A model generated the notes under the pieces. That model searched no databases and had not been told where the DNA came from. It was given only the letters and a program-made list of their open reading frames with translations. Shown in pieces: positions 489 through 46,700 of a stretch of DNA of 64,000 nt. The position numbers were made by a program, and so were the translations under genes. Position 1 is the first letter of the stretch, and each line of letters starts with the position of its first letter. Origin of the DNA: Mesaphorura yosii (taxonomy: Eukaryota > Arthropoda > Collembola > Poduromorpha > Tullbergiidae); NCBI GenBank assembly GCA_009869945.1, contig WIXG01000057.1, forward strand, positions 124,001-188,000, written 5' to 3'.

Positions 489-1792
489 ATGCACGAGCAC
501 CAACACCACGCTTCCGAACATCACGCGTCGGCGTCGCCGAGGCCAAAGTTTGAGACGATCGTGACACAAGTTGAGAAGGCGCACCACGGTGGCGTCAGCA
601 TCGGCCATGGTCCCGGTTTCAAACATGGTCACGGCCATAGCCACGGAGCACACCACGAGACCTACGAACTGAGCTTACTCCACGGTGGTCCCGGTGCCTA
701 CCCGCACGAACATAAAAAGTCCAGGCCCCCGACGCCTGATCCGATTGTCGACACGCTCACGTACCGGACGAGCACACGGGTCATCGCTGTGATTGATATC
801 GTAAGTGTATCGCGTATCCTGAGAGAAACGGCGTGAACTTTGGAAGGAGCGTGGAACTGACTGGACACTGTATTTTCTAGGTTTATTCCATGGTTATGCT
901 CATTTTCCAGCTGGTCGTGCTGATCGGTGGCAGTTCCTACAGGCAAAACGCGGACGAGGCGCTGGATGAAAGCGAAGCGGAAATGCGGAAGATGAGTAAG
1001 TTCAGTTAATAACCACATCGAAAACAACGGAATCTACTTTAGCTTTTACCTTTGTTCTCATTTTACAGACTTGACAATTGGCGTCCTCATCTGGATGGGG
1101 ATGTTTGCCGTGTGCATCGTCCAGTTGCTGGTTGCAGGCGCATTGTATGGCGGCACTAACGAAGTTGGTTAAATTTTATTAAATGAAAACCTGACTTAAA
1201 GATAAATATGCACAGTTCTGTCTTAATTTATGCTCCACAGAGAGACGGTCGTAAAACACTCCGGAACTGCCGGATCTGGTGTGCTATGTCCATCTTCCTC
1301 GTCCTGCTCCTCACGCTGGAGCTCGTGGGGATCGTCGCCTCCAACGAAATTACTGCGTTCCTGTTCCCACTCCTCGTCTTCACTACGGAGCTTGTGTTCC
1401 GCCTTGTGGGGCTCGTGATAATCTCACGCTTCATCAAAGAACTTAATTTCGAACTGAGTGACTTGGCGGAAGGAACTAAAGACGTGCATTACACTCAGCT
1501 ACCGACTGCGTCGACCCATTCGCCAGTGCATTCGATAACCAGCAGCAAGAATACGGAGTACGAGTACCTGTTCCAGCAAGTTCATGGCCACGACCAAGAC
1601 GACCACCACCAGAGCCACTCTCCAGTGCACAGGGTTCACCAAGGGCACGATCAAGGACATGGAAGGGCTCACGATCACGATTATGGATCCCATGGCCACG
1701 GATACGGACACGGTCACGGAAGTCACGGTCAAGGACATCTTCAGCATCTTTCCAAGAATCACCACGAACAGCATCAAAGGCACGTCGTGTAA
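489..1792 (+). CDS. Histidine-rich LAPTM4-like tetraspan membrane protein (family member 1)
   Basis: Four exons: 489-800, 881-995, 1069-1163, 1241-1792 (intron phases 0, 1, 0; 357 aa). The N-terminal about 95 residues are soluble and histidine-rich, ending in R-V-I-A-V-I-D-I at the first intron. Four hydrophobic segments follow: one in exon 2, one in exon 3 and two in exon 4. The last contains the family motif V-F-R-L-V-G. The C-terminal tail of about 110 residues is again dense in His and Gly, with repeated HGH/GHGH units, which could bind zinc or copper; that is inference. There is no PPxY motif. The start is the ATG followed by H-E-H-Q-H-H. The third donor (GAA|GTTGGT) is weak but is the only one that keeps phase. 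A possible poly(A) signal AATAAA lies at 2362-2367. Family by resemblance to LAPTM4/Mtp four-span lysosomal proteins; exact function unknown. Confidence 0.75.
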
Positions 1793-4520
1793 TTTATAAG
1801 GGCGTCATCATATTGCGAAGGGATTCCGAATGGTGCTCGCTCAACCTCAGCAAGGCCTCCGACGATTTACAAGGTTCAAGTGTAAAACGGGTGAATTATT
1901 GACTTCGACTTGGCTCAAGTACTTATACTTAATTTAATGTAATTAAAAGGCTGAACTATGAACTGCGTGGTACTGTACTGTACTGCTATAACTGTTTACT
2001 ACTACAATTTGTAGTACAATGTACTTGATATTTGTTTGAATAAGTTTAAGCAATCGGATAATAATTGGCTTGCTTCCTGGAACTCGTTTGCTCACCGCCG
2101 CCGTCGCTGAAATCTATTTAATTTAATGTCCTGTGATTACGTGTGATTGTAGAAGCTGTATGAAAGCGTTTGTAGACAAATTACAAATTGTTAATTGAGT
2201 ATGGATACAATTTAATTATAAACAAGATACAATACAATACCAGGAATGAGAATGGCACGGCTGGTCTCATTTTGACCTGAATAAGTGATAAGCCTGAATT
2301 CGAACCTTCTGTTCTAGCTTATAAACATTACTACAAGAGTACGACAGTACAAGATTTGACAAATAAATACTCAAGAGCCAGAGATTTGGCATGGAATTTC
2401 TAAGAGTTCTGTTTGCTGTGCTTAGTGTTTCGATTTAGCATGAAAGTAGGCCAGTCAGCTCGAATATTCATTTCAGTCATCGAGACTGACACCGCCACAA
2501 GCCGTAACTTCGAATTTTGCAGGCTGGAGTGCATTGCTGGAAATGGAAACACATTTTGTCTTCATTTATTCGCAATTCGCACGCCTCAGCCATTTAATTG
2601 GCTCCCGGACGACTTGCCAGGCCTGACCTGGCGTGGGTCGCCAGGCAAGGCGTACGGCACTCCTGTGCTGGAACTGCAAATCAGTGTGAATTTTATGCTT
2701 ATTTTGCTCTGCTTGATAGAAATGCGGGGTAACAACTGGTTGGAAAGTAATTAAAGGTAAACAAATGCAAATGAGTGTTATTTTGGGCCTTTCTTGCGTT
2801 CAAGGCTAGCCAGCCCCATGACTTGGTGGAAGTTGGAACTTCGATATACTTCTTGTCCAAGTTCGGATTCGGCCCGACGAATCTAGGCGCTCTCGCAAAA
2901 ATACGACGTGACTCCATTAATTTTGCAGGTTATTCATAATTCATCGAATTTACTCAATTGACGGCAAGAAAGGCAAGAATTATAGCGCAGCAGTTGTCAC
3001 ATTTGTCCAATCACCTAATAGGATTTTTATTGCAAAAGTTCCGCGCGTGGATGACACATCGTTACTATTGTCCCTGGAGGAAGTTTTACAGAAGGTTAAC
3101 TCGTTATTAGCCAAAGTAGCTTTATTCTATTTACAGAATCCCAGCGTCAGCATTTAATCCACTCGCAAGCGTTTCCGGACTGAACCAACTTATCAGCAAA
3201 TTCCACATCGCCCGCGCTCACCACACAGGCAAGGTCATAACGAGGCTCGCCATTTACTGTACACTGGCGTTGCGTTTTGCGCCTGCTGCTTCTCTGCTCT
3301 GCAATAATAATAACTTGATCGTTTAAACTCTTTAATGACTTTATTTTCACGTACTCCAGTGCACCCGCATTAAAAGTACATTGTGCATTGCACCAAACGA
3401 AAGTAATGCAAAGACGTACACGCACGCGTTCACGCGAGCGTTGAGAGGATTAAATGCTTTACAAATATCAACAGAAACAGCAGAAGTGGGACAAAATTTA
3501 GTCCAGTAACTTCCAGTGCAGTGCTTCACTGGCTCCATGACCGAATCTTGAGTCTCGGTCTTTCCCTGCTAAAGTGCCATGGCAAATAGCCCAATGGAGA
3601 GTTGGTCTTGGTCGTTGTCGCATTCTGCGGCGAGCTTGGAATTGTGGAATGAAGCCATGAGCCACTCAGTTGGCAGTTTCATACTTACATTAAACATTAA
3701 TGTCTCTTATCTCTGGACTTCAACTCGAGTCAGCCTGAATTTTGTTCCGATTTTACAAATGTGACTGAATTTATTCAATTTATTCATTGCGTGCTCCTTT
3801 TGAAAGCAATGCCACGGCGTACCGCGCCGTGCCGTGCCAGAGAAGATCGGATCAGTGTGAATGGTGAATGTGAGTATGAGTCCGGAATTGAAAGATGACA
3901 CGATCCGATAAGAGCACGACATAGAGCACTAAGAGTGCCAAGAATAGGACTGAAAGCCTGGCAGTCGCCGAAAGCCGAGTCATTTTCCATAGCTGAAGGG
4001 GTTCTTGAATGGGAAATCTGTATTTTTCCAAGCTGCAATATTTCTAGAGCCACAAATGAAATGTACGCAGATGAAAATTACGAGCAGCTTCCAGTATTCG
4101 CTTTGCAACATGTTTCTCAGCAACGCGAGCAAGGCTTCAATGCGCTGAGCGTGGTGAAAGTGAGAAGAGACGACGGCGGTGAGTTTGCAAACCAAGCCGG
4201 AGTTCTTGACATTGATTTCACGAGCATTAGTCGTACCAGTCAACGCAGTGCTCTTTTTTTTTAGCCACGAGGTTAACCTCTTCAAAATTAGTAGTAAAAG
4301 GTGGTGTTGATTATCAACTCGCTACTTGTATTACGAGGTCAACAGGTGTGCAGAGCAGAGCATCAGAGACTGGTGTTCGTTTGAGACTGTTGGTGTTGAG
4401 AGTTGAGAGGAGACTTGCAATCAGAATCAGAGAATGCTGAAATCCTCAAAATACTTGAAAGGCAACCCAAACAAAAAGAAGAAAGCAAAGGCGTGACGTG
4501 ACGTAAATTGGCAAACTGGA
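1793..4520. other. Intergenic region, no gene recognised
   Basis: About 2.7 kb between family members 1 and 2. Open frames are short, overlap in several frames and have no splice-consistent partners or recognisable domains. The left end must contain the 3' untranslated region of the first gene. A short GTACT-type repeat is visible around 1971-1987. Nothing else is supported. Confidence 0.6.
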
Positions 4521-5936
4521 ATGGACCGAAGAATTGGGTCAGAGGATCCAGCATACCGGCTCTCGGCCAAGGTCGTGGCGATCTTGGATATTGTAAGTAA
4601 AAGTAAATAATTAGGGGTAAGACAAACGAGGCCGTTCAAAAAGGTATGAAATCCACAAGAAACCTGGAGTGACAACAAGGTTGCATTCTAGCCTAGGATG
4701 TAATAGAATCTCGAGTGACGCGTCTGTGTGATTCTGAGAGGCAGCGTGTCGCAAAGACAGCATTGCTTTGCTTTCATTCGTACACAAGAATACAACGAGA
4801 GCTTAATTGTTGTACTGCTCCTGCCCTGTAACTTTATGAGTTTATCACCCACGTTGTAAACTGAACTTAGCGTTGAACTTCGACTTGACCGACATGAACC
4901 TCCAGGACTTTGTCAGGCTTCCTGAACTCGGCGGCTCTTGGGACTGATGTTGCGAAAAACTTCTGAGGACCACGTCAGTACCAAGCAACAGCAGCGGAAA
5001 AGGTTGGAAAAATTTTCTGCCAGCTCGCTCAAGTTTCCGAAGAAGTCGACCCAACATTCCGCATAAATCAACATGCGAAACGAAACGAAACACACGCGCA
5101 CCTGTCAACAAGAAATATAACTGAGCCAAAGAACTCACTGCTCGCCTTCGTGCAACCTAAAGCAGCATCAAGACTTGCAAATTGATGTTCTTGTCCTGGT
5201 CTTGCTTGCAGGGCGCAGCCATTGCCACGTTGGCATTCCACGTGTTCACCATTTTAACTCAGGAGACATCGGAGGAGACGAAACATTCCAGGAGGGACGT
5301 GCTCGTGCCGCTCACACCTGTTCAACGTAAGCGAGATTGTCGTCCATGCCCGACCAACCACGAAACTCTATTTAGCCTATCGTGCCAAAGTTCCGTTCGC
5401 TTAAACGGAATTGAGCCTTAATCCGATTTTATCACAATTTTAGTGCAATTACATGGCTATTTCCTGGTGCTAGCATGGATTGGAATAATCGCAGTCAACA
5501 TTGTCCAACTTCTGATTGGCAGTACACTTTTTAATTGCACATCTCTTCAGGTAGACCCGGTATTCATCTACAATATTTCAGCATCGCACGCCTTTTCTAC
5601 AAATAATCCTGAATTTTTGCATGTTTCCAGGTCGAAGCGACAAAAGCTCTGAGTGGATCCCGTACCTGGATCAAAGCCTGCATCTTCTTGATAATTCTCC
5701 TCGTATTCAAGCTAGTCATTCTGTATTTCATGTCCGAAATGGGCACTCGTGTCACGTACACGTCACTCATTTCCGTCGTAGAGCTCGCTTTCCGAAGTAT
5801 CGGACTTGTGACTGTCATGAAGTACTTGCACGCTGTGACGACGGCGTTTCCAGACATCTCACAAATATACTACGAAGCTCAACAATTAGTGGAATCACCG
5901 GAAAGGAATCCCGTGACAGACGCAGTCTGGTTTTGA
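4521..5936 (+). CDS. LAPTM4-like tetraspan membrane protein (family member 2)
   Basis: Four exons: 4521-4592, 5212-5326, 5444-5550, 5631-5936 (phases 0, 1, 0; 199 aa). The short first exon encodes about 24 residues ending K-V-V-A-I-L-D-I. Membrane helices lie in exon 2, exon 3 (W-I-G-I-I-A-V-N-I-V-Q-L-L) and two in exon 4, the last with F-R-S-I-G-L-V. The tail is short, ends near P-V-T-D-A-V-W-F and has no PPxY. Exons 2 to 4 have exactly the same lengths as those of the gene at 17911 (115, 107, 306 nt) and nearly the same protein, so the two are close duplicates; only exon 1 differs strongly. AATAAA at 6069-6074 is a likely poly(A) signal. Lysosomal or endosomal location is inferred from the family. 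Confidence 0.8.
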
Positions 5937-17910: not shown

Positions 17911-20900
17911 ATGGACAGGATGAATAACTACAACCACAATTACAACGAGTATTCGGGCTACGGTGACCTCGGGCAGGGACAGGCACAGGGATACATTAAC
18001 AACTACACTTATTTGTACCAAGCGCCGACGAATCTCAGACCGGTCACTTCGAACGTTTCTATCAATACCAATGCAAGCGCCAACTCCAACAACGCCACTG
18101 CAAATGCAAATGCCAAAGCCAACGCCGCGGCCATGGCGTCAGCGTTTGCCAAGGCAAAAGCGGCGACAGCTGCGGCGGCTTCGATGGATTCGATACGGTC
18201 GAGGCTGATGCCTCCCACAGCGGGCACAGGCTCGGCAATGACATGGATGACCGGTGCCGGCCATTCCCCTGCTTCTGCTTCAGCTTCAGCAGCAACTTCA
18301 GCTGCCATGAACATGGACAGGCGGATCGGAACAGAAAACCCCGAGTACAGGCTGCGCTCGAAGACAGTGGCCTTTCTGGACATTGTAAGTAAAGTAAAAC
18401 CTTCGTCCTTGCCTTGCGTTTCGTGATGTGATGAGAAGCAACAGGTCTCACGAGAAATGTGGACGCAGCGCAGACGAGACTGTCATTATTCAAAATTCAT
18501 GAAGCAGAATCCGTGAAAGCACAACATAAAAAATTTGCGAAGCATATAAAGTGTGCGTATCTATTGAAGAATCTTTACAAGGCGAATGAGTTGAAAAGAG
18601 ATCTTAAACTTTCTTAGACTGTCGTCTCGTCAAAAAGTTTAAAGTAAAGCGAAAAGACAAACAAAGAAATTCAAGTCTACGTCGCATTCGCAAGGAACAA
18701 GACGCAAGTAATTACTAAAGAAAGTCAAGTTTATTTGGTGTGACGTGAGACATGTCTCATACTGGTTCGTAGCTTTTCTTAGCTTGGTGACTGCGAAAAG
18801 AAGATGAAGTAACAAAATTCTTACCGAGCGTAAGATAATTTCCGTTTGCGAAAGATAACTTCAACATTTTACAATTTTAAACTTGGAAAAAGTTTTAATT
18901 TTAGTCATCAATGTCAATTCCACAGTTTTTGGGAGGTTTTGGGTGTTTATAAGCAAGATTCTCGGCCTACGCCAAGCAAAAGCTACTCCATCCAAGGGCA
19001 AAGCAAAATATGGCTGACTTCCTTATGCATCTTTCTCATCTCATCAATCATCGCTCGATTCAAGCCAACATTACAAATATCCGGGACTCTCGTCCCGCAT
19101 GCGGCATTGCTGACAATTTCTTTAAAATTTAATCCCATCTGAGCCCATGCGCTGTTGCTGTTTCTGCTGAGACAATTTCCTAATCTTATTAACAGTCAAG
19201 ACGAGGCGAAATGGAGAGAAAATGGCAGCGAGGCCTTCAGAACTTGAGACGTTCCAATTCCAGCTAGCTATTTGCGAGTTCCACTGGCCCAATTTGTCAA
19301 TGTTTCCTTTTCGCATTTCCATTCCATTTCCTTCTCATCCTCTTCGCGTCCCACCTGCCATTGCATTTTCTTTTGCCATTACGGCGTAGTGTCCTGTCTC
19401 GTCCCGCATTTACTTTCATTTTGTTTATACATGTTAATACAGTTGAAACAAAAGTTACCCGCTCCAATTTGCGGGACGGAAGATTGGGTTTCGGTTTCTT
19501 CGGGAGACTGCCTTGCACTGGCACTCGTCTCAAGAGTCATACAATTCTCTTTGCACTGAACTGACTATCACTATCCTTATTATAAAGGGAGTAAAGCATT
19601 TTTTCTGTAGTGGCGTCAAGCGACGCTTTGTACAGAAACAGAGGTTTTTGTGCAGTGAAGATTTGGAAGCAAGCTTGAGCATGCATTCAAGCTGCCTCCA
19701 TAAAAGGATTATGAGTAATCACTAGATCTCTTACTAGAATCTTTATTCTAAAGGTAGTAATGCCGGGACAAGTACAGTGACTTGCGTGCATGTCTGTGCA
19801 TTCTGTGTTTCTACGTCATTTCATTTTTCTTGGGTAATTCAAATAGTCAGCTATTACTACACTGTAAATGATTGATTTCGCTGTAAATACAATTTCGCAT
19901 TCGTTTGCGTGAAAAATATGAAGAAACATGAAATAGCTTGAAGAGCCATAATGCGACAATCTCTTTTTTTAAAGCGAGGATTGCGATATGCCGGGTCACA
20001 AAGTTATTTCCGTGTCAATGATGGGATATGTTATGTTACCAAATATAACCAAACATTACAGATTCCCATTCCAATTCGGATGTTTAAAAGAAAGCAAACT
20101 TGACACCGACTTGTTTCGATTGTCAACGGGCCTTTGGCCGAGATCAAACTCGGCGGGCTTCAGCCCGCCGCTAGCTGTGCTAGTTTAAATTGATTGAACT
20201 CTGCAACGGCAAAAGCAACGAGTCAAAGTAAAGCGCAGCGGACCGAGCCTCGCTGCGTGCCTGATGCGCTGCTATTTGTTTTCTATTACGATTTCATTTG
20301 AAGATTCCGTTCCCACTTGGGGACTGACGATCCTGACACTTTTTGCTGATGCTGACGCAGTATTTTTCGTATCGTATTGGCCAGCCGAAAGCAGCATTTT
20401 GTTTTGTAGTAAGTGAAATGTGATACTTCTGTCCTCGAGTTGTTGACACAAATCGGGGCTTAACTGCCGAGAGCCTTATTAAATGAAGGATGAGGAAGTG
20501 AATTCATGACCACGAATGCTTTCACGAACGCGAAAGTTTGAGCAGCGGCAGTGAAAAGTGGAAAGTTAATTTGGGTTAAAGTTAGTCGGTAGCCGACAGT
20601 CGAGTCGAGAGCCGAAATACCACAACCGTGCTAGTTTGCTATTTACCACTTTCATGTGGTTTCTGGCTAACTAATGGTTTCATGAGACTTACGCCTTATG
20701 CGACTGACATGATATAAAGGACCAGCAGAGGCCTAGACGTGTGGTGGAATAATCCTGGAAACAGTTTATTCTTAGCAATATTAGCAATTTGTAGCAAATA
20801 TTGGGAGCAACCTATGCAACGGACGCAGAATGGCAGAATTAAGTAGTTTTCAGCCCGGAGACGAAGACGGGATTTCTACTACGGTTTCTGGGTATTTCTC

Positions 20901-22011
20901 GATTAAATGTCACGCGAAACGCACAACACACGTGTAGGCGATTTCAGCGATTTATATTTGAAACCAAGACGAAAGGAAGCAGCAGTTGAGTAAATCTTTC
21001 TGAGAACTCACTCAAGATAATTGAAAGTCGAGTCACTGACAAGATGAGTAGGCCACGTAAGATTTAAGTCCCCGTGAAGTGAAGCGCAAAATAGCAAAGC
21101 CAAGCGAAACTTGTAAAATGCAAATTAATATGCAAAATACGGCTGGGCCAGGCTCATTTGCTGAAACCCAGCAGACAACTTGCGTTGCATGTTTTGTTCC
21201 TCGTGGCGAGATTTCCACGTTTCCAGAAAGAAATCTTTAATGCCAATGCTAATATAACCCGGGATATTTATTTCTACTGCAGGGCTCAGCCATTGTGACG
21301 ATGGGTTTCCACATGTTCACAATCATCAGTCAAGAAGCGGCTGAAGACGGAAAACATTCCAGGAACAATGTTCTCGTGCCCCTTACACCTGTACAACGTA
21401 AGTCAAGATTCCATTTACAATTTACAAAATTCTCTTTTAAACTTCAAACATTGGATTAGTTGGGAGTTCGTTGGCTTTTACTTGGTTTTTAAGAAGCAAC
21501 AAAAATTGACTCTTTCTCATTTCAGTACAATTACACGGTTACCTTCTGGTCCTGGCCTGGATTGGAATAATCGCGGTCAACATCGTCCAGCTCCTGATTG
21601 GCTGTACGTTACTTAATTCGACGTCATCTGAGGTGAGTTCGAGCACCATTTTATCTAGGTCTTTCGAATTTAGGAGCTTTTATGACTTAATTTCCGATTT
21701 TCCAGGTCGAAGCCACGAAAGCGCTGAGTGGATCCCGTACTTGGATCAAGACGTGTATATTTATCCTGATCCTCTTAGTTTTTAAGCTAGTCATTCTGTA
21801 CTTCATGGCTGAAATGGGCACACGCGTCACAATCACCACGCTGGTTTGTATCCTGGAATTTATCATCCGGAGCGCTGCGCTCGTGACCGTCATGAAGTAC
21901 TTGCACGCTGTGACGATGGCGTTTCCTGACATTTCACAAATCTACTACGACGCGGAGCAACTTGTGGAATCTCCTAAGAGAAATCCTGTGACGGATGCTG
22001 TGTGGTTCTAA
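17911..22011 (+). CDS. LAPTM4-like tetraspan with long low-complexity N-terminus (family member 3)
   Basis: Four exons: 17911-18384, 21283-21397, 21526-21632, 21706-22011 (phases 0, 1, 0; 333 aa). Exon 1 encodes about 158 residues: an Asn/Tyr/Gly-rich start, then a long Ala/Asn/Ser-rich stretch, then R-R-I-G-T-E-N-P-E-Y-R-L, which matches the start of the protein at 4521. It ends at T-V-A-F-L-D-I on intron 1. Exons 2-4 are near-duplicates of those at 4521, including W-I-G-I-I-A-V-N-I-V-Q-L-L and the end P-V-T-D-A-V-W-F. The four membrane helices are intact and there is no PPxY. Intron 1 is unusually long (2.9 kb) and carries a Helitron-like terminus. AATAAA at 22491-22496 is a likely poly(A) signal. 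The low-complexity N-terminus is predicted to be soluble and disordered. Confidence 0.78.
19727..20183 (+). mobile_element. Candidate non-autonomous Helitron-like element
   Basis: The right end has the layout known for Helitron 3' termini: a GC-rich perfect hairpin (CGGCGGGCT, loop TC, AGCCCGCCG; 20151-20170), nine bases, then CTAG at 20180-20183 followed by T. Two smaller hairpins (GGCC-TTT-GGCC and CGAG...CTCG) sit directly before it at 20129-20152. The proposed left end is TC at 19727 preceded by A, giving insertion between A and T as Helitrons do, but this end is a guess. A similar AT-rich motif followed by AAAGG and GTAA occurs near 19576-19597 and could be an alternative left end. No Rep/helicase coding is present. 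It lies within intron 1 of the tetraspan gene at 17911. Confidence 0.4.
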
Positions 22012-22972: not shown

Positions 22973-24215
22973 ATGAGTTACGGGACGAAGTGGGCCATTC
23001 GGGCAGCGGTACGTATTTTCTAGTTTTGTAGCTCTGCATTTCGCTATTCCGCAACTTTTTCACTTAATTTACCTCGAAGAGAGACAAGACTCTGAAGATG
23101 TGAACTGATTCATTGAAAGTACACGTGCTCGATGTTCCAGCTCTTAATCCGATTAAAATTGATCGCCGTACTCGGCCTCCGTCATCAGACTGCTTTCTAT
23201 TTACGTATATTCATCGCATTGGTCACAGTGTTTTACTCTCCTTCCAGGTTTTTGGACTAGTTTTGCATCTTCTACTCACGTCAGCCATAATTTGTATCAT
23301 AATTCTCGTGGCAAAAAATGTTAGTTTGGGTAAGGCCTTGGATTCCACTTTCACGTATTTGTTCAAGTATTTTTAATCTTCTTTGGCTTTGTGTTCGTTC
23401 GTTTTTGGCTTCCAGCGAAAAGTATCGCCACAATCACTCCATTCAGTGTTCACGCCCTTGAATTCCTGGCTGCAGTCTCGCTATTAAGGACAAAGAGAAT
23501 GGTATGGACGTAAATGCGTTGCTCGTGCTCGCAGCGTAGCACGTGTAATACTTCAAAACAGTGAAGACAGACTTATTTATCACTCACGCCTGATTACTTC
23601 ATGCAGAATAATCCCTTCATCGAGAAATGTACAGTTTGGTTAACATCAGCAAAGTATTTATCGCCGTGCATCATTATTGAGGAGGGAATCCTCATTTCCT
23701 GGGAGTTTCATTTGGGGATTGTGGCCGTGGTTGGAGTTTCGTACGCAGTGGCAGTAGGACTGGTTACAAATAGTTTACGGCTGAAGTGCGCGTGCGCAGA
23801 GACGGAACGGAGAACGGAAGCTCGAAACCGACATCGGGATCGAATGCAAAATACGACAGCAAGAGAAGCATTCCAGAGGGTGGACACTGGCGCGTGGACG
23901 ACGAACGCTGTTGGCACAGGCTCGTATGAATTGTCCACTGCACCTGCTCGATTAATATTAGCTGAGGCTCATCCAGCCGTTTCGACGGAGGACGAGTACG
24001 AGACTGACGAAAACGATGATGTGATAGTCATAAATGATGAAGACGACGAGGATTATCCGCTTCCTCCATATGAAGACGACAATGAGTCTCCGCTCCCTTC
24101 ATACGAAGACGCCTTACGTTTACTTTTATCGCAGTTCGAAGCGGAAGACTCTGCCATAAATCAAGATGACCCGCCTCCATGCTACGACGATGTATTGAGA
24201 ACTGATATGGCTTAA
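22973..24215 (+). CDS. PPxY-tailed LAPTM4-like tetraspan membrane protein (family member 4)
   Basis: Four exons: 22973-23008, 23248-23329, 23416-23501, 23607-24215 (phases 0, 1, 0; 270 aa). The first exon is only 12 codons (M-S-Y-G-T-K-W-A-I-R-A-A). Hydrophobic helices lie in exon 2 (V-F-G-L-V-L-H-L-L-L), exon 3 and at the start of exon 4. The arginine motif seen in the fourth helix of most relatives is absent, which groups this gene with the one at 31404. The cytosolic tail of about 140 residues is basic first, then very acidic, and carries three proline-tyrosine motifs: L-P-P-Y-E-D, L-P-S-Y-E-D and P-P-C-Y-D-D. These resemble the NEDD4-binding motifs of LAPTM4/5. The gene converges on ABHD11 with 44 bp between stop codons. 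Confidence 0.78.
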
Positions 24216-30150: not shown

Positions 30151-30270
30151 TTTGGAATCTAGATAATGATGCACTTGCCACGTCTTCCTTGTCTTGCGTG
30201 ACAGTCGTTCGTTTGTGTGCTTCAATGCAATAAATTCTTGTAAATTGCGTCATGGCCTGCGTGCGTTTCA

Positions 30271-31403: not shown

Positions 31404-32575
31404 ATGGCCATAACACTTGTAATCCATAATTCAAGAGACCTGGAAAATGCAATTACGAAAGCATTCATATTTTGCGTAAGTATTCGAAAGTGAAAATTTG
31501 TCTTTGTCAACAACTTCATCTGATTTCGTATCTGACAGGGTCTGACACTTGTTCTGATGGTGAGTGCACTTGGTTGCGCCATATACTTGGCGCTTAAGAA
31601 ATCAGAAGATTTGGCACAAGGTAAGTAGTTCGATCTGCTAGCCATTAGGCATGAGCCTGCATTATTTACCAAATTCTATTGTTCTAATTCTGACTACAGT
31701 TGGGCCTTTATTACTGGTTACTTCACCATTCGTGCTTCATTCCATTCAGTTACTGACCACGCTGGTGCTCCTACGCATGGCAAGGAAGGTAAGAAACGAA
31801 GTGGAATCGTTGAAGCCAATGTTGCAGCGATAGGGCAATGGAGCGTATGACGGATTTGTGATTTTGTCGGTTTTAGAACCCGGAAAACATTACAATGACA
31901 AAATGCAGGTGGTGGAGCGTAATCTCACGAATATTGACCGCCCCGATCCTGATTGAAATGATGATTCTGATTGGATTCAAATGGTACCTGACAGTCATCG
32001 CAATTCCATTGGTGATCATGTACTTTGTGACGATACTCCAAGTTGAAAAGATTATGCACTACTTCTTCACGAGAAACCTGTCATCCAGAATTCCCAATTG
32101 CGGTGGTGGTAGCAACAGACACCGGGAGTTCTTATTTTTTGAGTATCCGTACGACATCGATGTGAATTCTTCATTTTACCGCCTCTCGGCCACAACTTCT
32201 CCACGGAACAGACCAGTAATGCCACGCAGGAGTGGCAGCGCGTTGTCGCTGGCGCTCAGCCTCTCGCTTCCAGTCAGAAACTCACCACCACCGTCGTATC
32301 GCGACGTGACCGGCCCACACGCACACACGCATCGAGCCCATCAGACTGGCATTGCAAACTGTTTCCACATTCCACTCATGCTGAATGCGGGCACGGGGAC
32401 GCCCGATTCCATGGGATTGGATTCACCGCCGCCGGCTTACGACAGCCTTGGATTGGAGCAGAAGCAGGAGTCAAGTCAATGCCAGAGCAAGGAGTCTGCT
32501 CCAGGAGACACATCGACTTCAAACACGAGCGACATAGGCACAGGCACCGACGAAAAGTTGAACCTCAAAGACTAA
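31404..32575 (+). CDS. PPxY-tailed LAPTM4-like tetraspan membrane protein (family member 5)
   Basis: Four exons: 31404-31475, 31539-31620, 31700-31788, 31877-32575 (phases 0, 1, 0; 313 aa). Exon 2 is 82 nt, the same as in the gene at 22973, and both lack the fourth-helix arginine, so they form a subgroup. Helices are visible in exon 2 (L-V-L-M-V-S-A-L-G-C-A), exon 3 and twice in exon 4 (I-L-I-E-M-M-I-L-I-G-F and V-I-A-I-P-L-V-I-M-Y-F). The cytosolic tail of about 150 residues has two PPxY motifs, P-P-P-S-Y-R-D and P-P-P-A-Y-D-S, plus a His-containing segment between them. The tail predicts binding of NEDD4-type WW domains, by analogy with LAPTM4/5. A possible poly(A) signal is at 32927-32932. 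Confidence 0.78.
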
Positions 32576-33438: not shown

Positions 33439-34622
33439 ATGGAGATTAGTACGACCAAGAAGTACGAGCGCCATCGGATTGTGGCCATTCTCGATGCGGT
33501 ACGTGTAAAACCAATTAGAGCACGTGGGGCCTCCTTCGATAATTCGTATGATTGACAAATAGCGAGGATTTAACTGATGGTTTGACTTTACAGGCTCTGG
33601 CTCTCTGCCTTTTTGTCGTATGCTCCTTCACACTCCTCTTTGTGTACTCCATCAACGAGGAGCGCGTGTCCGAGGTGCTTGTGGTCATCCTGACTGTCCC
33701 GCTGATCCTGAACGGGATCCAGATGGCCGCAGGAATCGTACTGCTCTTTCTCACGCGTAAATACGCTCACTACCTCCCCGCCTGCTCCCGCTGGTGCTCC
33801 GTGTCCAAGTACTTGACCGCCTTCACCTTCATGGAGTTGTTTGTCCTCCTCCAGTTTCAGTTCAACTCCCTCGCATTTGGACTATTTGGGATCCAGTATT
33901 TCGTCCGTCTTGTAGCCATCCAAAAGGTTAGGCACTTCATGGAGCTGCTGATTCTTCGAAATACTATCACCAGAAGAGCGGCGGCGATTGCTACCAGGCG
34001 GACGCCAGTGATGTTGGGCGACAGACTAATCGCAACAACGATTGTGCCGAACAACGAACTCGTGTATGTGACAAGCAGCCAAGGTCAAAGTGCAGGTGGT
34101 GGACACCCGAGCCTGGACCATACTTGCCCGCGATTCACTACGTTTGGAGCGCTGGCAGGGCAGGCCAACGCGATTCACGTGCATCCTTACTCCGTGGGGC
34201 CTGGAGCAGTTCGTCCCAGCCGTGGCAGAGTGCTGATATTCGATGACTTTACAGGCGAGCTTCATTTACAGTGCCGACGCCACGACGAAGACGCCTCGAG
34301 TAGCCAACCATCAAGCCAAGGCGAAGTAAACGAAGGTCCTTCAGTCGAGGCGCAGGTGCAGCAGGAAGAACTTCCGCCACCTAGTTACGCCGACGCCATG
34401 TCAAGATCGAAATCCACGCGCACTCACACGTCTATACTGCGAGGCGGCGGGCGGTACATCGACGCTCCGCCCAGTTACAACGAAGCCGTGAGGGCCAGGG
34501 CCCGAATGCACTGGAGAATCATCGCGGCCCACCGCAAGAATCAGTCTCAGCGTCAGCTTGGAGTTGAAGTTGGAGGAAAACCGCCTGCGTCGTGTGCTGC
34601 ATTCCCACCGTCTTTCCTGTAA
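33439..34622 (+). CDS. PPxY-tailed LAPTM4-like tetraspan, two exons only (family member 6)
   Basis: Two exons: 33439-33498 and 33594-34622 (phase 0; 362 aa). The first exon encodes 20 residues ending R-I-V-A-I-L-D-A, the family's conserved intron-1 site. All later introns are missing: one exon of 1029 nt covers four helices (A-L-A-L-C-L-F-V-V-C; V-L-V-V-I-L-T-V-P-L; F-T-F-M-E-L-F-V-L-L; F-G-I-Q-Y-F-V-R-L-V). The tail is the longest in the family, about 220 residues, and carries L-P-P-P-S-Y-A-D-A and A-P-P-S-Y-N-E-A near its end. AATAAA overlaps the end of the coding region at 34622-34627 and a second copy is near 34720. A C-terminal lysosomal or endosomal ubiquitin-ligase recruitment role is inferred from the PPxY motifs. 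Confidence 0.8.
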
Positions 34623-35874: not shown

Positions 35875-37003
35875 ATGGTTTCGCCTTCAGGCCACTCAGC
35901 CGCCCATTCCCAGTGCAGCAGCCCCTCGTCGACGCAAGCGCACGCGCCAACGCCGACACTACAGTCCACGTCGGTAACCCTTGACATTCACATTGACGAT
36001 GACAATGACACGGACACCGACGCCGTGAGGAACAATAACAATGGAGAGACTCCGTCCGAAACCGTCGACGTCGAGGCCGAGCTGCGGCCACGAGACTTTG
36101 TCAGATTCCGGAAGGGCATCCGACTCATTGCCGTCATTGACTTTGTAAGTTGAGCTGATGCGAATTAATTGCTATGCCGTGACATGGAATTCTATTTTTC
36201 TGTTCGATAAACTGAAGCTCGATGGGAATTGGAATTTGTATTATTTTTGTTTTCATTTTCAGTGTGTCGCATTTTCAATGCTGTTTCTGCTATCATTTGG
36301 ATTCTTTCGCGTTCGTCTCGACGCGACTGGCGATAAATGTAAGTTTAATTCTTGCAGTTTCCAACGAAGCTGAAGTGCTAACGTGCGAAATAGCAAAATG
36401 ATGAAAATAGGCATTAAATCAAGCAGTATTATTATGTCTGGCAAAAGCAATGATAGCAATGCATAATGAATAATTCACGTGTCCACAGCTGTTCAAGCGT
36501 TCATCCTGGCCATGTACGGCCTGTACTCGATCCAGATCCTCGTCTCGATCATTCTGTACAAAGGGACTCACAAATCTCGTCCCGACGTCGTCGCCCGCAG
36601 CTTTAAGCAGTGGAGCACGACGTCCAATTTCCTGAACGTGATGCTCTGCGCCGAAGTCTACTTCTTCATCCTCATGGTGGAGGGCCGCACAATGATCTCA
36701 ATGTCGCTCTGCTTCCTGAAAGTCATTTTCCGGGGGATCGCAGTGCAAGTCGTGAATTACTCGATACGTGAAATGCAGGCGCTTTCGGCCGCCCACGGCC
36801 ACGGTGCCCACGGACAGGAAGATCTCGCCTCGTCCAGCATGCTCCTCAGTCCTGCCGAGTCTATAACGCTGGATTCAAGCACGATTTCTTCGTCCATACC
36901 AAGCGCAGCTGCCGCGGCCGAGTTCAAAGTGCCGCCACCCGCGTATGAAGCACCGCCAAAGTACGAAGAGGCCATCAAGAGGCAGATGATTGCCGAAAGC
37001 TGA
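35875..37003 (+). CDS. PPxY-tailed LAPTM4-like tetraspan membrane protein (family member 7)
   Basis: Three exons: 35875-36144, 36263-36338, 36489-37003 (phases 0, 1; 286 aa). The N-terminal 90 residues are soluble, Ser/Thr/Pro-rich and then acidic (D-D-D-N-D-T-D-T-D), ending R-L-I-A-V-I-D-F at intron 1. Helices are in exon 2 (V-A-F-S-M-L-F-L-L), then three in exon 3, the last with V-I-F-R-G-I-A-V. Exons 3 and 4 of the family plan are fused, so the third intron has been lost. The tail has a short His/Gly patch and ends in the double motif P-P-P-A-Y-E-A-P-P-K-Y-E-E-A, very like mammalian LAPTM4 tails. The start chosen is the first in-frame ATG; a longer open frame begins with GTG. AATAAA is at 37081-37086. 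Confidence 0.8.
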
Positions 37004-37825: not shown

Positions 37826-38798
37826 ATGAGTGAGTCGACTTCGACTCCAACGACGGCAACACCAGCCGAGAGCAGCAACAGCAGTAGCAATGTAAACACC
37901 AACGCGGTAATCGATGGTCCGTGTCGGTACAAAGAGGCAGTTCGCTGCATTGCGATAACTGACATCGTAAGTTCTTGATCAGGGTCGTAGTTAATTTAAT
38001 TACAAGAAGCTGATTTTGTTTTAATTAATTCCAGTGCATCGCTTTCTTCATGCTGACATTCCTTTCGCTCCGTTTCTTCTCCAGCAGCCTCATCTATCGG
38101 CAGCTGTACCCAAAGGAGCTTTTCACCACATCCAGCGACTGTAAGTTGACCAGGTTCGGTGCCCCAGTGCAATTTTCTTACATTTCCGTCATATTTCAGC
38201 GCCTAATCTCTTCACCTTCGTCACCATCGCTCTGATTTTGATCTACTCGGTGCAGCTTGGCATGGGGCAGCTCCTGCTTTCCACCACATACCAATCAAAT
38301 CTCGACATAATCATGTCTCGTTGCCAGAAATGGTACTGGTTCTCCATCCACCTGAACGTGGTGCTTGGCATCGAGTTGCTGCTGCTGATCTTTGCGGTCC
38401 GTGACGACGAAGGAGGCAAGAGGTTCCCGATTCCGGCGCTCGTGTGCTTGATCAAGATGATATTCCGGAGCACAGCAAACCACCTGGTCAAAGTATTTAT
38501 TTGGGACTTGCGGACTCGGAACCTGATGATCCCTGTCGTGGCCGGGCTGGGAATTGGCGGCGGTGTTGGCGGACCAGGCAGCATCAATTCGGCAGGGAAT
38601 CTGGGCTCACCATTCCCATTCGAGTCGAGCTCCTCGCTGCAGGGCGTTGCGGGTGGCGGTGGTGGAGGAGGTGAGTATGGGAACATGGTGTCGGTATCCA
38701 TTCCAAAGTACGAACATCCGCCGAGTTACGAAGAAGCAATGAAGGAGAAGCCACCATATTTTCAAGAGATCAGAGGTGCTAACGATAACCAGGTCTAG
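37826..38798 (+). CDS. PPxY-tailed LAPTM4-like tetraspan membrane protein (family member 8)
   Basis: Three exons: 37826-37966, 38035-38140, 38200-38798 (phases 0, 1; 281 aa). Exon 1 encodes 47 residues rich in Ser/Thr/Asn and ends R-C-I-A-I-T-D-I. Helices follow in exon 2 (C-I-A-F-F-M-L-T-F-L) and three in exon 3, the last with M-I-F-R-S-T-A-N. The third intron of the family plan is missing. The tail contains a glycine-rich stretch (seven Gly in a row), then H-P-P-S-Y-E-E-A and K-P-P-Y-F. The gene converges on GABA transaminase with 317 bp between stops; AATAAA at 38936-38941 lies in that gap. Function inferred only from family resemblance. Confidence 0.8.
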
Positions 38799-39115: not shown

Positions 39116-40744
39116 TTAATTGGATTTCCTCATGGCCTGAGCTTCTTTCACTGTAGCCAGCAATTCCAACACCTTCTTCAGGCTATCCAGCACAATATTC
39201 GCGTGTCGCTCCGTGAAAGTAAGTGTAGGCCGAATCCTGACTCCGAGCGGGTCCCCAGAAGCCATGCAGTGCACGCCGTGATTGTGCATCAACCTAAGGG
39301 CCTTGTTGCGGTCTTCATTCGTATTGAAATTCAGGGCGCACATCATCCCACGCCCACGGACCTTGTTGATGATATGGCTGTACTTCTCCTGGAGGATGAG
39401 CAGGCCCTTGAGGAGGTACTCACCCACTTCCGCCGCCTGCGTGACCAAATCCTCCTTCTTAATGACTTCCAGGATTTTCGCGAGCAACACGAGCTTCGAT
39501 GGATCCGACATCCACGTGTTGAACACCCGGTAAGGCTGGTCGACCCGGAACTCGGGTTTGTAGAAGTAACCGCCCGTCTGCATTTTCTTGGCGAAGGTGA
39601 CAATGTCCGGTGGGTTCTCAAACTCAAAGTGCTCATGCGCCCAGAACTTTCCAGTGTGGCCCACGCCCGTCTGAACCTCGTCCATGATGAACGCTATCCC
39701 GTTCTCGGCGCAGAGGTTACGTATCGCACGGAAGAATGCTGGCGACGCATGGCGATCTCCGCCTTGGCCCTGAATCGGCTCGGCGATGAAACCTGCGATC
39801 GGGCGTCCGCTCTTCGTCTCCTTCTCGATCACGTCCCGCGCCTCCTCTAGGCACTTTCTATCTTCCGCTTCGTTCTCGACGCTAAATTCCTCCAGCGGGT
39901 ATTTGTACTCTGGCCAGGGAATCGTTGGCCAGTCGAATGCTGGGACGTCGAGTTTGTGGATCCAGTTCGAATGCGTCACGGAAAGCGCGCCAAACGTCCG
40001 CCCGTGGAATCCGCCCTTGAAGGACATGATGGAGATATTGGGCGAGCCTGGAGCCTTGTTCAACACGGAGCTCTCCGTGAACTCAGGCGTGAGGCCGATC
40101 GGCGTGCGCCCGCCTCGCACTTTGTTCTGGTACCAGAAGCAGACTGCCTTCAACGCGTTCTCGACGGCACACGACCCACAGCCCATCGTCTGCACTTCCG
40201 TGAGCCCAGGCGGCGCGACGGAGAGCAGCACCTTCTTCAGCTGAGAAGCGAGTTCCTTGTTGGGCAGCACACCGAGAGCCGGTCGGTTGACGAAGAGCGA
40301 CTCGTACTGCTTGTCACGAAATGCTTCGAGCATTGCCGGGTGATTGTAACCTGTTTGAACGAAGAAGGAATGAAATTTACGGACAACCTTTAAGTTTTAT
40401 GTCGTATAAGCCACTTTTCGCAGCTTACCAATCGGCACGGAAGACACTTGAGTGTAAATATCAAGAAATGTGTTTCCGTCCACATCGACCAAATAATTCC
40501 CGATGCATTTTTCGAAGTCCACGACCAAATTGACTGCGTCACTCTGCTGTACTGTGTCCAACTCCGCTTTCACTGCCAGCGACTGCGGCCCGGGCACGCT
40601 GGCGGTCACGATTCGGGGTCCGGTGGGTTCCAGCGTCTCGATGAAGGTTTTTGTGTACGATCGAGCGTGACCAGCATTCTGAAGGGCAAACGTACGTAGT
40701 GCAAACTGCGTCCGGCCAGTAATTAATGACCTTACGTTAATCAT
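39116..40744 (-). CDS. ABAT: 4-aminobutyrate aminotransferase, mitochondrial (GABA transaminase)
   Basis: Two exons: 40744-40429 and 40350-39116 (78-bp intron, phase 1; 516 aa against 500 in human). The enzyme transfers the amino group of GABA to 2-oxoglutarate, giving succinate semialdehyde and glutamate in the mitochondrial matrix. An Arg/Ala/Ser-rich N-terminus fits a mitochondrial targeting sequence. Class III aminotransferase landmarks are present: S-S-V-P-I-G-Y-N-H-P-A, M-G-C-G-S-C-A-V-E-N-A (the two cysteines at about 163 and 166 match the pair that holds the iron-sulphur cluster in pig GABA transaminase), F-I-M-D-E-V-Q-T-G (cofactor aspartate about 329), and F-A-K-K-M-Q-T-G-G with the PLP lysine at about 361. 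The start is the ATG before I-N-V-R-S-L; a longer open frame begins with GTG. Only one intron is kept. Confidence 0.93.
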
Positions 40745-42747: not shown

Positions 42748-43024
42748 TTAAGCCGTTTCTTCTTCAGCTTCAGCTTCGTCTTCGTCGTCCATCGAAGACG
42801 GGTCCACGATGCCCGAATCTGCGCTGGCGTGCCGCTGCCAGCTGTATTTGTTTCGGATCGCATCTGGATGCAAGTAATTCTCGTCGGGACTTGAGCTTGC
42901 TGTCGAGCCTGTGTCGATGCCGGTGTCGTTGTCCGTTGACGCGGCTCCTGTCTCTTTGTCATCTTCCTTCTGTAGCTGTGGCGGAGGAAGAATCAGTTTG
43001 GGCAATGTCGGCCTCGGTCTCGGT

Positions 43025-43055
<31 letters not shown>

Positions 43056-43500
43056 TCTGCTTCTGACCAATGCTAAGGATCCACCATCGCTTGCGAACCA
43101 GTTCGTCAACCGCCACTCGCACTCCACGGGACTTTAACAGTGCAAGAAGGCAATCAAAATTCGCACTTTGGCCGACGAGGTTCCGCCACACCTGTAGTTT
43201 AGACAGAATCGTCTGCTTCATGGCGGCTGAGTTAATTGAGTTGGGGCGCTGGCGCTTGGATGGCGTAGAAGGCTTGTGGTGGCCACATGAAGTGACTTCA
43301 TCCCAGTTCTGGACCAAATACTGGTCACGGAGAAGAATGTCACGGATGACTTCGAGTTGCTGCTGATTGACTACAAGTGAATAAAATTGCAATTGCGTTT
43401 CAATTGACTGACTAATGGAAAGATCACATTAATTTCACTTACGCGGTGGAGAGGGTGCACTCAGTCCGTTGGTTCCATTATTGCCCATTATTGTCGCCAT
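42748..43500 (-). CDS. Polyglutamine-containing protein with weak death-fold resemblance
   Basis: Two exons: 43500-43443 and 43370-42748 (72-bp intron, phase 1; 226 aa). After a short Gly/Asn/Ser start comes a helical region: Q-Q-Q-L-E-V-I-R-D-I-L-L-R-D, then L-S-K-L-Q-V-W-R-N-L-V ... C-L-L-A-L-L-K-S-R-G-V-R-V-A-V-D-E-L. A tryptophan-containing helix followed by L-L-x-L-L and a final short helix is reminiscent of the later helices of death domains such as Tube or MyD88, but I cannot confirm it. A pure CAG-type run then encodes about nine glutamines, followed by a Pro-rich and an acidic tail ending in E-A-E-A-E-E-E-T-A. No signal peptide or membrane helix. It could be an arthropod Toll-pathway adaptor or an unrelated helical protein; name not assigned. 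Confidence 0.6.
43029..43055. repeat. CTG/CAG trinucleotide repeat
   Basis: About nine uninterrupted CTG units on the plus strand, read as CAG (glutamine) in the minus-strand gene. Flanking CTTCTG units show partial decay. Length polymorphism is likely. Confidence 0.8.
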
Positions 43501-44356
43501 TTTCCTGAATCCTTTTGAGCAGGATCAGCAAGAATTCTAATAATAATTGATCAGCCACTGTCCCAACTGTCCTTCATTTGCCAACAAATGTTGCAATGAG
43601 TAAGTTTCCTATGTGAAGTACCTGTGTTCAGATGCAAGTTGCATTTTAGTTCATGGAATCGTTTTGACTTTGACTTTGACGCATTGCTATTGCTCTTATC
43701 GCAGTTGGCATTTATCGTATTTGTGCACATCGATAGAACTGTGTCTAAATAGAATGCGAGCTTATCAGCTGTCGTTGCCAGTCCCTGCGCACACTCAGAA
43801 TTATTCATACATAAAATAGGCATGCGAAAATGAAAATGTACGGCATACTGTAATACAAAAGTGCTTAGTTGCTTAGTTAAAATTGGTCCGGGATTTCCAG
43901 ATTTCCCAATCTCAAAATTACAGCGAAATTATGATTATGTTCACAGCAACTCAGCGCAATAGAACTGACAACAGACAACAAAGGAGTCAGCAGCGACAAC
44001 ATCTTTGCGAATGCTAATTCCGCAATGTATGAGCCATGAATCATCGAGATCAAGCAACAGCAACCCACGAAGTAGAGCCGAAGCCGTGATTGTGGCCGGA
44101 GCAGAGAGACAATTTCAGAGATTCGGAATCTAAAAATAGCTTGGCCATCGCCATCAGTAGAGCAGTAAGACGTGGACCATGAAATGCTCAAAAATGCGAT
44201 ACACTACTGACACACATAACAAGTGCGAAACACGGAATGTAAATGCGGGTCATGTGTGGCTGTACGGTAGAATCTTCGTCCTTCAGTATTCAATCAGTAT
44301 CTAAAAACTAGCCATTGATCTGTGATAGCGATAAGCAATAGAATATCCTACTCAAA
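43501..44356. other. Divergent intergenic region, no gene recognised
   Basis: 856 bp between the start of the polyglutamine protein gene (minus) and the start of family member 9 (plus). Both promoters should lie here, but no TATA box is clear. No coding signal. Confidence 0.5.
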
Positions 44357-45095
44357 ATGGGGTTTGTGTTCATGGACATGTGGGCTTGCCGGAAGTACAC
44401 AAAATACATTGCGCTGGCTGATTTCGTAAGTTCCAATTATTTAGTGCGTGCTGCCTATCGTTATCGGACGGCGAGACCTGATTTTTGTAAATGGTTGCTT
44501 TAATATAGATTTGGGGCCTCATTCTGACCCTCACGAATCTCATAATCCTGATTGCGTACAGCTGCTTCATCGAAGAGAATTTGCTGGACGGATTCCTCAA
44601 CGATGATGTGACTTTACTGCTTCTGATTATCTTCTCCTCATTCATTCTCCTCGTTCAGCTCATTATCGCCTTACGGTTGTTCAATTCCAGTCGAAACGTA
44701 AGTGATTGGAATAACATCTGATGAAATCGTCTAATTTTGAGACTCTGAATTGATTTTTTGCCTGGCACTTGGCACAGTTTGACTCAAGTCCAGAATTCTG
44801 CTGCTCCGCATCCAGACAATGGATAATCACCTCGTACGTGTTCCTTGGACTTCAGGTCGTCAAAATCCTCGCTATGTTCGTCCTCTTCGCCGCTTCTGAC
44901 AATGTGCACAATCGGAATTCTACGAGGAAGTATGTGTTCATCCTCCTCTCGATGATTGACATCCTCTTCCGCGCCGTGTTCATGAGCACCGTCAAGCTGT
45001 TCTACGACAAGCACGTGTCCGTCGTGCAGACTCTCAAGACGAGGCCAAGTGCAGCGGTGTTCAAGCCCCTTTCGACGCCCATCGAGCATTACTAA
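44357..45095 (+). CDS. Compact LAPTM4-like tetraspan membrane protein (family member 9)
   Basis: Three exons: 44357-44425, 44509-44697, 44778-45095 (both introns phase 0; 191 aa). Exon 1 ends K-Y-I-A-L-A-D-F at the conserved site. Exon 2 contains two helices in one exon (L-I-L-T-L-T-N-L-I-I-L-I-A and L-L-L-L-I-I-F-S-S-F-I-L-L), so the family's second intron has been lost while the third is kept, the opposite of its neighbours. Exon 3 has the last two helices, with I-L-F-R-A-V-F-M. The tail is short (about 35 residues) with no PPxY, ending S-T-P-I-E-H-Y. AATAAA at 45260-45265 is a likely poly(A) signal. Confidence 0.78.
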
Positions 45096-45727
45096 ATACT
45101 AGATAAGCATACATCAATAAGAAGCAGCAAGACACCTTCCACTTCCAAGATTGCATTATGAACTCAAGAAATCTGAACATAATTTACGATTCTTCTGCGA
45201 CAGTGACTGCCGAACAAACATCCAAATTGTTATCACATGTAAATGTAAACAATGATGCCAATAAAATTATGACGGGATGCCAGAAAGCAGTAGAAGTCTA
45301 AAGATTTGTGCCGTCGCGTCGTAAAGCTGGAGATTGGCCAAAAGTGGCCAAGGCAATGAAGAACGAAGCAAGGTGTAAAAATACATTCACAATTGACTCC
45401 ATCGGGTTACAGTACACAGCCTTACATTATAAATTCTAGACAACTGACTTCTTCAGACGCTCAGGCTGCCACTGCATTTATCTCAAGGCGAGTCATTTGT
45501 TTGCTTGTCGTTTGCGGTGTGCTCGTGTTTGTATTTGTATTCGGAGGCGGACGAACGTGGACTGTCTTTTAAGCCAAACCATGTTGATAATAATTCTTGT
45601 GGTTTAATTTTCAATTCAACAAATTCTAACTCACACACAATTAATTCGTGATCCGTGACTGGTGACTTCAATGTGAATCTTACAACCATTGGCGTTGACA
45701 GCTCTCCAACCAATTCGTTAAATTGAT
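45096..45727. other. Intergenic region, no gene recognised
   Basis: Contains the 3' end of family member 9 (AATAAA 45260-45265) and the upstream region of member 10. No coding signal. Confidence 0.55.
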
Positions 45728-46700
45728 ATGGGTTTGGAATCGTTGAACGGGGACGCTCAAAACCCAAGTCTGACGGCCCCGGCCGCGACCGTCGTTGACG
45801 TCGACGTACACGTGCTGCTGGACGCAAACTCTTCACCAGTGCTCGTACCACGACATATTTCCAATGGTTATGGACACACGCATGCGCAGAGAGCCCGCCA
45901 AAGCCTGCCCAGTCTTTCAACTCACACGCACGCTCCACGGTCGTCGTTGTCCATTCCGATTCCGAGTCGTCCGATTGTGATTCCCGACGTTGATGTAGAC
46001 CTGAACGAAAGCACGAGGATGGAGCGGCGGCGGCGGCAAACCCTGCTGGTAGCCATCGTAGATTTGGTAAGGCTTCTCTTGAAATCTCTTCAAACTGTTT
46101 GTAAAGTTTGATCGTCCATGTTTGCCTGCTACAGCTGACCGCTCTTGGTTTATTGACTTACCACATTGACCGTATCATTACATACTACCAACCTGCACGA
46201 TCTCAGCAGCAGCAGACTGAACACAATTCCGAAGCTCGGGCGACTGATTACACTTGTGAGCCGCTAAAAGATTCATTTTATGGCAACCAATACAAACGAG
46301 TATAACGATCATCTTCCGTACTGTATTGTTATTGTTAGCTCCACTTGTGATTGCGTTATGGACCATAACATTCGCCATCATTCTGTTGCACATCGCGACC
46401 GCCTCCAGCCTCCTGTCCTGCAGTTATTCGGTGCACTGCACAGACTTGTCCGAGTCTTCACGAACTGCCAAGCACGTCAACTTATGGGTGTTGTGCTCCC
46501 AGCTCCTCATGACAATTTGGATCGTCAAGCTCACCGTCTACACTGCCACGTTCCAGTTTGGATACGAGATCGGAGTGTTCAATATAATCGTCGAGGACTA
46601 CTCCAGCATTTGGTTCGTGCTCCTGTTTTATATCGGCCTAGTCGTCTTCCGGGCGGTGGGGATATACTTTGTACGAAAGTACGAAAGGGAGTTGGGATAG
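45728..46700 (+). CDS. LAPTM4-like tetraspan with long soluble N-terminus (family member 10)
   Basis: Three exons: 45728-46066, 46135-46255, 46339-46700 (phases 0, 1; 273 aa). The N-terminal 113 residues are soluble, with V-D-V-D-V, an Arg/Ser/Pro-rich stretch and R-R-R-R-Q-T-L-L-V-A-I-V-D-L at intron 1. Exon 2 adds the rest of helix 1 and a Gln-rich loop. Exon 3 has three helices (I-T-F-A-I-I-L-L-H-I; L-W-V-L-C-S-Q-L-L-M; V-L-L-F-Y-I-G-L-V-V-F-R-A-V-G). The C-terminal tail is very short (Y-F-V-R-K-Y-E-R-E-L-G) with no PPxY. The third family intron is missing. AATAAA is at 46809-46814. This is the last member of the array. Confidence 0.78.

Follow-up and report, generated by a model that had tools for sequence, protein, structure and literature searches.

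What kind of genes form the long plus-strand row at the start of this stretch of springtail DNA, and what might their products do? The window, that is, the whole stretch analysed (64,000 nucleotides of contig WIXG01000057.1, here C57, from Mesaphorura yosii), had been described in an earlier note, made from the letters alone, as holding an array of LAPTM4-like membrane protein genes at 489-46700. We read this array as a branch of the LAPTM4 (Mtp)/DUF4728/DUF7027 superfamily of four-helix membrane proteins that has diverged fast and multiplied by tandem duplication. Its products are probably endolysosomal sorting adaptors, some of which would engage Nedd4-type ligases through PY (PPxY) motifs. 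We give this reading a probability of about 0.7.

Evidence for common descent of the array genes

Gene models g1-g10 were spliced by hand from the window DNA and their introns were checked for GT-AG ends. The ten plus-strand genes claimed for 489-46700 were borne out as complete genes, each with a single frame from ATG to stop and GT-AG introns throughout. In addition, a hidden Markov model (HMM) of the ten cores found an 11th gene, g0, at C57:121828-122865, ending 1.1 kilobases (kb) upstream of the window edge, which corrects the array to eleven members. The first intron of g0 follows IATIDI and the remaining core lies in a single exon. Besides g1-g10, this HMM found nothing above the inclusion threshold inside the window, and beyond g0 it found no member above that threshold in C57:64001-124000 or C57:188001-218000. 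Of the 292 kb that make up the contig, the other 138 kb were covered by the genome-wide single-protein, Pfam-family and one-pattern searches only.

Judged by sequence comparison, the eleven genes share common descent, and their similarity exceeds chance. We scored each core with the profile of the remaining members, removing both g2 and g3 when either was tested, and compared it with 1000 shuffles per member in which local hydropathy was preserved. The cores reached 16.0-96.6 bits and the best shuffles 11.3-27.7 bits, the true core exceeding its best shuffle in 11 of 11 cases. The weakest member was g4 (16.0 vs. 11.3 bits), which is also backed by its own 0/1/0 introns. A profile comparison of this sort had been named beforehand as the way in which the members might prove to belong to unrelated families; it upheld their kinship throughout. 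The ten genes of the window are as follows (all coordinates are window positions).

g1: 489..1792, plus strand; exons 489-800, 881-995, 1069-1163, 1241-1792; phases 0/1/0; His-rich at both termini; 357 amino acids
g2: 4521..5936, plus strand; exons 4521-4592, 5212-5326, 5444-5550, 5631-5936; phases 0/1/0; 199 amino acids; sister of g3
g3: 17911..22011, plus strand; exons 17911-18384, 21283-21397, 21526-21632, 21706-22011; phases 0/1/0; Asn/Ala-rich N-terminus; possible internal start at residue 135
g4: 22973..24215, plus strand; exons 22973-23008, 23248-23329, 23416-23501, 23607-24215; phases 0/1/0; acidic tail in which [LP]PxY occurs three times; most divergent core
g5: 31404..32575, plus strand; exons 31404-31475, 31539-31620, 31700-31788, 31877-32575; phases 0/1/0; two PPxY
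g6: 33439..34622, plus strand; exons 33439-33498, 33594-34622; phase 0; core undivided beyond the first intron; two PPxY
g7: 35875..37003, plus strand; exons 35875-36144, 36263-36338, 36489-37003; phases 0/1; two PPxY
g8: 37826..38798, plus strand; exons 37826-37966, 38035-38140, 38200-38798; phases 0/1; Gly-rich tail with one PPxY
g9: 44357..45095, plus strand; exons 44357-44425, 44509-44697, 44778-45095; phases 0/0; short tails without a PY motif
g10: 45728..46700, plus strand; exons 45728-46066, 46135-46255, 46339-46700; phases 0/1; long N-terminal end, C-terminal tail nearly nil

The phases agree with the earlier statement that they are 0/1/0 where all introns remain: g1-g5 have 0/1/0, and the others have fewer introns, with phases 0/1 in g7, g8 and g10, 0/0 in g9 and 0 in g6. 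The first-intron site, which lies within helix 1, fell in the same column for all ten window genes in alignment A1 and for nine of them in a larger alignment of 23 rows, g4 being four columns off. The shared site claimed before therefore stood, and the IAxxDI-type motif said to precede it had to be narrowed to 8 of the 10 genes (I/V-A-x-x-D-x), since g4 (WAIRAA) and g5 (KAFIFC) are without it. In g3, an in-frame MDRRIG at residue 135 aligns with the start of g2, so the Asn/Ala-rich N-terminus upstream of it may not all be translated.

A four-helix core had also been claimed. Hydrophobic segments above threshold numbered four in 8 of the 11 members, which fits that claim, three in g6 and g8, and two in g4, which by threshold do not. 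An AlphaFold2 model of the g6 exon-2 segment (33594..33977, plus strand) had four helices, with a mean predicted local distance difference test (pLDDT) score of 84.3 and a predicted template modelling (pTM) score of 0.67. Over the 30 gene models described below, Lys and Arg made up 0.175 per residue of the N-terminal flank, 0.159 of loop 2-3 and 0.151 of the C-terminal flank, compared with 0.085 and 0.093 of loops 1-2 and 3-4; in this analysis the forced helix search misplaced the last helix of g8. The charge pattern places both protein ends, by prediction, in the cytosol.

Relatives elsewhere in the genome

Thirty genes were modelled in all: the 11 of the array, 8 dispersed genes (including one on C309) and 11 LAPTM/DUF4728-like genes. 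This number is a lower bound because further matching places exist beyond the modelled ones. A DNA pattern for the first-intron motif had 21 matches in the whole genome and 1 for the reversed control. Eight of the matches were array genes, another eight yielded models of dispersed genes built on that plan, and five were others; no supporting gene was found at C10, C41, C141 and C1105, and C50 is the fifth unmodelled match.

The Pfam cut-offs used were 25.2 bits for Mtp (PF03821), 26.7 bits for DUF4728 (PF15860) and 27 for DUF7027 (PF22954). At E<=0.001, an Mtp search of the genome had no match, and neither had its control, so this result carries no weight. When the genome was searched with DUF7027, three places came up, all weakly (E 0.009, 0.23 and 0.71). 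From two of these the C182 tandem trio and a gene on C89 could be modelled; at the third, C67, no such gene was seen by eye. In C182a-c, exon 1 encodes CCC..VRTGT and the first intron lies directly behind it. Intron phases, found here without an intron criterion, were 0/1/0 in C182b and C182c, 0/1 in C182a and 0/1/0/0 in C89. The C89 gene passes the DUF4728 cut-off (30.6 vs. 26.7 bits), and C182a lies slightly under both (23.7 of 26.7 bits for DUF4728 and 23.8 of 27 for DUF7027).

The DUF4728 genome search gave 15 places, two of them over the cut-off. Seven new genes were modelled from it, with a Cys-rich exon 1 in six and not in the seventh (C254), and six places are not among the modelled genes (C994, C69, C904, C6, C9 and C1012). 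The RTG motif is present in C182a-c, C541, C435, C494, C385 and C163, and C175 and C268 (MVNPCFCGC..AT..AVxDx) appear by eye to be intermediate between the RTG and IAxxDI types. The modelled C163 gene (L060) is followed by a further 'VLTLLQLILSALLLHGD' stretch, so small tandem groups may exist among the LAPTM-like genes too. The C182 trio (L050, L053) lies directly upstream of a gene that we named, by eye, alkaline-phosphatase-like.

A stepwise link to LAPTM4

A typed-in sequence of human LAPTM4A served as a positive control. It scored 78 bits against Mtp and also matched DUF7027 (E 0.0014) and DUF4728 (E 0.014) weakly, which ties the three families together. Profiles were then compared with hhalign in its default alignment mode, with E-values that apply to single comparisons. 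The array matched the dispersed IAxxDI genes at 98.7% (E 1.6e-15), or at 97.9% (E 2.6e-12) with the seven genes left when C309 was removed. The dispersed genes matched the LAPTM/DUF4728-like genes at 99.0% (E 7.1e-17; 98.9% without C309), and these in turn matched human LAPTM4A at 97.5% (E 3.1e-11), the four hand-spliced genes among them giving 96.5% alone. Directly against the 11 LAPTM/DUF4728-like genes, the array reached 92.8% (E 5.4e-8). Reversed controls gave 0.1-1.6% in the five group comparisons and 0.1-0.3% for reversed LAPTM4A.

Two selection biases that affect other models, namely splicing picked by profile and the first-intron criterion, do not touch the C182 and C89 genes. The four wholly hand-spliced LAPTM-like genes matched the dispersed genes at 94.9%, and the C182 trio alone did so at 91.2%. 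Against 200 shuffles per gene, the array HMM ranked all 8 dispersed genes above every shuffle, together with 3 of the 11 LAPTM-like ones; the dispersed HMM did so for 10 of 11 LAPTM-like genes, and 5 of the 8 dispersed genes passed the same test with the LAPTM-like HMM. Finally, g1-g5 and C182b/c have a gene structure in common, with a phase-0 intron in helix 1, a phase-1 intron ahead of helix 2 and a phase-0 intron between helices 2 and 3, and the C182 and C89 intron sites fall in the same alignment region as those of the array.

Several results weigh against placing the array with LAPTM4. In a Pfam-A scan, none of the 11 array proteins reached any cut-off, and the comparison with Mtp and the arthropod DUF families that the earlier note had proposed gave no match to Mtp, DUF4728 or DUF7027 at E<=5 for any member. 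RTG precedes the first intron in none of the 11. Compared directly with LAPTM4A, the array gave 0.1%, with nothing detectable, and the dispersed genes gave 0.1-0.4%. The array scored 1.0% against the four hand-spliced LAPTM-like genes and 0.1% against the C182 trio, and its direct link comes from the seven other LAPTM-like models (94.9%), whose splice forms were chosen by score to a profile that included array members, although five of these seven consist simply of exon 1 and a single open frame. The array profile was likewise used to choose six of the eight dispersed models. Nor is the first intron independent evidence in the dispersed genes, because these were found by the first-intron motif. 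Above all 200 shuffles, the dispersed HMM scored 7 of 11 array genes and the LAPTM-like HMM scored only g1. C182b has a weak DUF4728 match only, and C182c matches neither DUF4728 nor DUF7027. In addition, the PY motif is missing from 6 of the 11 array members.

Since the hand-spliced LAPTM-like set matches the dispersed genes and not the array, the tie between array and LAPTM4 is indirect and runs through two steps. The label "LAPTM4-like" thus holds as remote kinship through intermediates, which the profile chain and the 0/1/0 gene structure support, and does not hold as Pfam membership.

Tandem duplication within this genome

The expansion of the array within this genome is clear. Trees of the 30 cores were made with two choices of alignment and model. 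The array plus C309 (L045:1468-2495) formed a clade in both, with bootstrap 96 and Shimodaira-Hasegawa-like approximate likelihood-ratio test (SH-aLRT) 89 in the first tree and SH-aLRT 94.6 and bootstrap 93 with the other alignment and model. C309 was the sole modelled gene outside the array to group there. Genes g4-g8 were one clade in both trees (support 97/87 and 89.3/94). Many branches were long and the inner forks uncertain, and the tree tool flagged g4+g5 as a possible long-branch pairing.

For 9 of the 11 members the nearest array relative is a physical neighbour, a count reached in 15 of 20000 permutations, which argues for tandem duplication. Over all pairs, gene order and tree distance were not significantly correlated (Mantel r 0.086, p 0.28); significance was confined to the nearest-neighbour test.

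Soluble ends and PY motifs

The earlier description of wholly different soluble ends proved right. They are His-rich in g1, Asn/Ala-rich in g3, acidic and PY-bearing in g4, and Gly-rich in g8. The first 96 residues of g1 contain 18 His and the last 112 contain 25 (43 in total, in His-rich stretches at both ends), and by appearance these ends are reminiscent of metal-binding loops.

PPxY occurs in the tails of five of the 11 array members, g4-g8, that is, in all five of that divergent clade, and in the tail of C309, which carries three. The PY motifs may therefore be ancestral to the clade of array plus C309. Among the 12 tails of this clade, 6 hold 11 PPxY motifs, compared with a mean of 0.30 and a maximum of 3 in shuffled tails. 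The 18 remaining modelled genes have none.

Proposed role and rival explanations

We infer the function of the array proteins from their LAPTM4 likeness, and a sorting or adaptor-like role, as suggested before, is plausible by that analogy. The core would sit in endolysosomal (or Golgi or plasma) membranes and bind client membrane proteins. The cytosolic PY tails of g4-g8 may recruit a Nedd4-family WW-HECT ligase, which would sort the protein and its client to the lysosome, by analogy with mammalian LAPTM4a/b; the client, the ligase and the compartment are what we infer. Members without PY would have to use other signals or reside elsewhere. The unconstrained tails may have been replaced repeatedly (His-rich, Gly-rich, acidic or nearly none), giving each paralogue a different cytosolic partner. 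More tentatively, and with the odds against it, the array might be a sorting-adaptor toolkit peculiar to this lineage, in which a LAPTM-type core was duplicated at least 11 times and its cytosolic ends exchanged. Each paralogue would then couple a different client, or a metal or pH signal, to different machinery, and g4-g8 would be the Nedd4 recruiters.

The members could instead belong to an independent four-helix family, for example MARVEL-, claudin/TARP- or MS4A-like, with PY tails that arose by convergence, as in other Nedd4 adaptors. We consider this unlikely. Somewhat more doubtful is that they are small lysosomal or Golgi solute transporters, following the original Mtp idea of nucleoside or drug compartmentation, with tails that are mere sorting signals. 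Many members share an acidic residue in helix 1, and many an Arg in helix 4; PMC9333335 and PMC3214061 describe Mtp/LAPTM4A as a nucleoside transporter and multidrug-resistance factor in yeast. However, the invariant columns of alignment A1 are A, L and W only, with no invariant charged residue, and the Pfam clan of Mtp has, according to PMC9333335, no other domain annotated with transporter function.

The array might also be decaying and functionless, a set of duplication relics whose tails drift as low-complexity sequence. The extreme divergence of the tails, their low-complexity ends and the loss of introns in several members would fit such decay, which is nevertheless most improbable. All 11 frames are intact with GT-AG introns, and PPxY is kept in the whole g4-g8 clade. 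Between g2 and g3, nonsynonymous divergence (dN) was 0.143 and synonymous divergence (dS) 1.83, the latter close to saturation; the resulting dN/dS of 0.078 shows these two proteins to be under purifying selection.

If the preferred reading, a divergent LAPTM4/DUF4728/DUF7027 branch, is correct, then LAPTM4, DUF4728, DUF7027 and a divergent branch without annotation would be one superfamily, joined by gene structure and stepwise profiles, with at least 30 such genes in one genome and 11 of them in a single array. If the PY members are Nedd4 adaptors, they would offer a natural series for asking how the tail determines which client a LAPTM-type protein takes and where it goes.

Comparison with known families

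The closest known proteins are LAPTM4A, LAPTM4B and LAPTM5 (Mtp; TCDB 2.A.74). The array resembles them in its four-helix plan, in both ends being cytosolic by the charge rule (a prediction for the array), in the C-terminal PPxY of some members, and in profile kinship through intermediates of the same genome. The LAPTM4A tail has the style xPPxYxxA, which resembles the array tails, and its N-terminus carries CCxCCxVRTGT before helix 1. Unlike these proteins, the array lacks an Mtp match, the CCxCC..RTG motif and direct similarity to LAPTM4A, and its 11 genes stand in tandem and differ greatly at their ends. Ndfip and Commissureless/PRRG4 are Nedd4 adaptors as well; as small membrane proteins that expose PPxY to the cytosol they resemble the array, but they differ from it in helix number. 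Mammalian LAPTM4a and LAPTM4b bind Nedd4 via PY motifs, and the motifs and Nedd4 help lysosomal sorting, according to PMC3214061.

DUF4728 and DUF7027 are domains of unknown function, the former listed among families of Tardigrada and Arthropoda in PMC5531438. The matching genes of this genome share the 0/1/0 plan and first-intron site of the array, whereas the array is missed by both Pfam models and has longer, variable tails. PY motifs likewise separate the array from the 11 LAPTM/DUF4728-like models of its own genome, in which there are none. In open-licence literature we found no account of a LAPTM-type tandem array in an invertebrate. The new element is that a known superfamily has expanded in tandem and turned over its tails here, with array members below every Pfam-A cut-off.

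A structural fold comparison returned generic bundles only, and membership in the MARVEL, claudin/TARP, MS4A and tetraspanin families was set aside. No tetraspanin-titled entry stood among its best 50 matches, a result that excludes nothing. When PDB sequences were searched with the array profile, three matches at chance level came back, and the typed-in LAPTM4A retrieved no LAPTM entry there.

Neighbouring genes

Scans of the window with Rfam at gathering thresholds and for tRNA gave no matches. Between array members lies the first gene listed here, one of several minus-strand housekeeping genes, and further genes follow the array.

39119-40396, minus strand: class-III aminotransferase gene (320 bits)
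47077-47900, plus strand, after g10: gene resembling Mpv17 by eye; a Pfam scan of one of its exons gave no match at E<=0.01
48555-54531, minus strand, downstream of the array: integrin beta-like, apparently two adjacent genes (two Integrin_beta matches and EGF matches)

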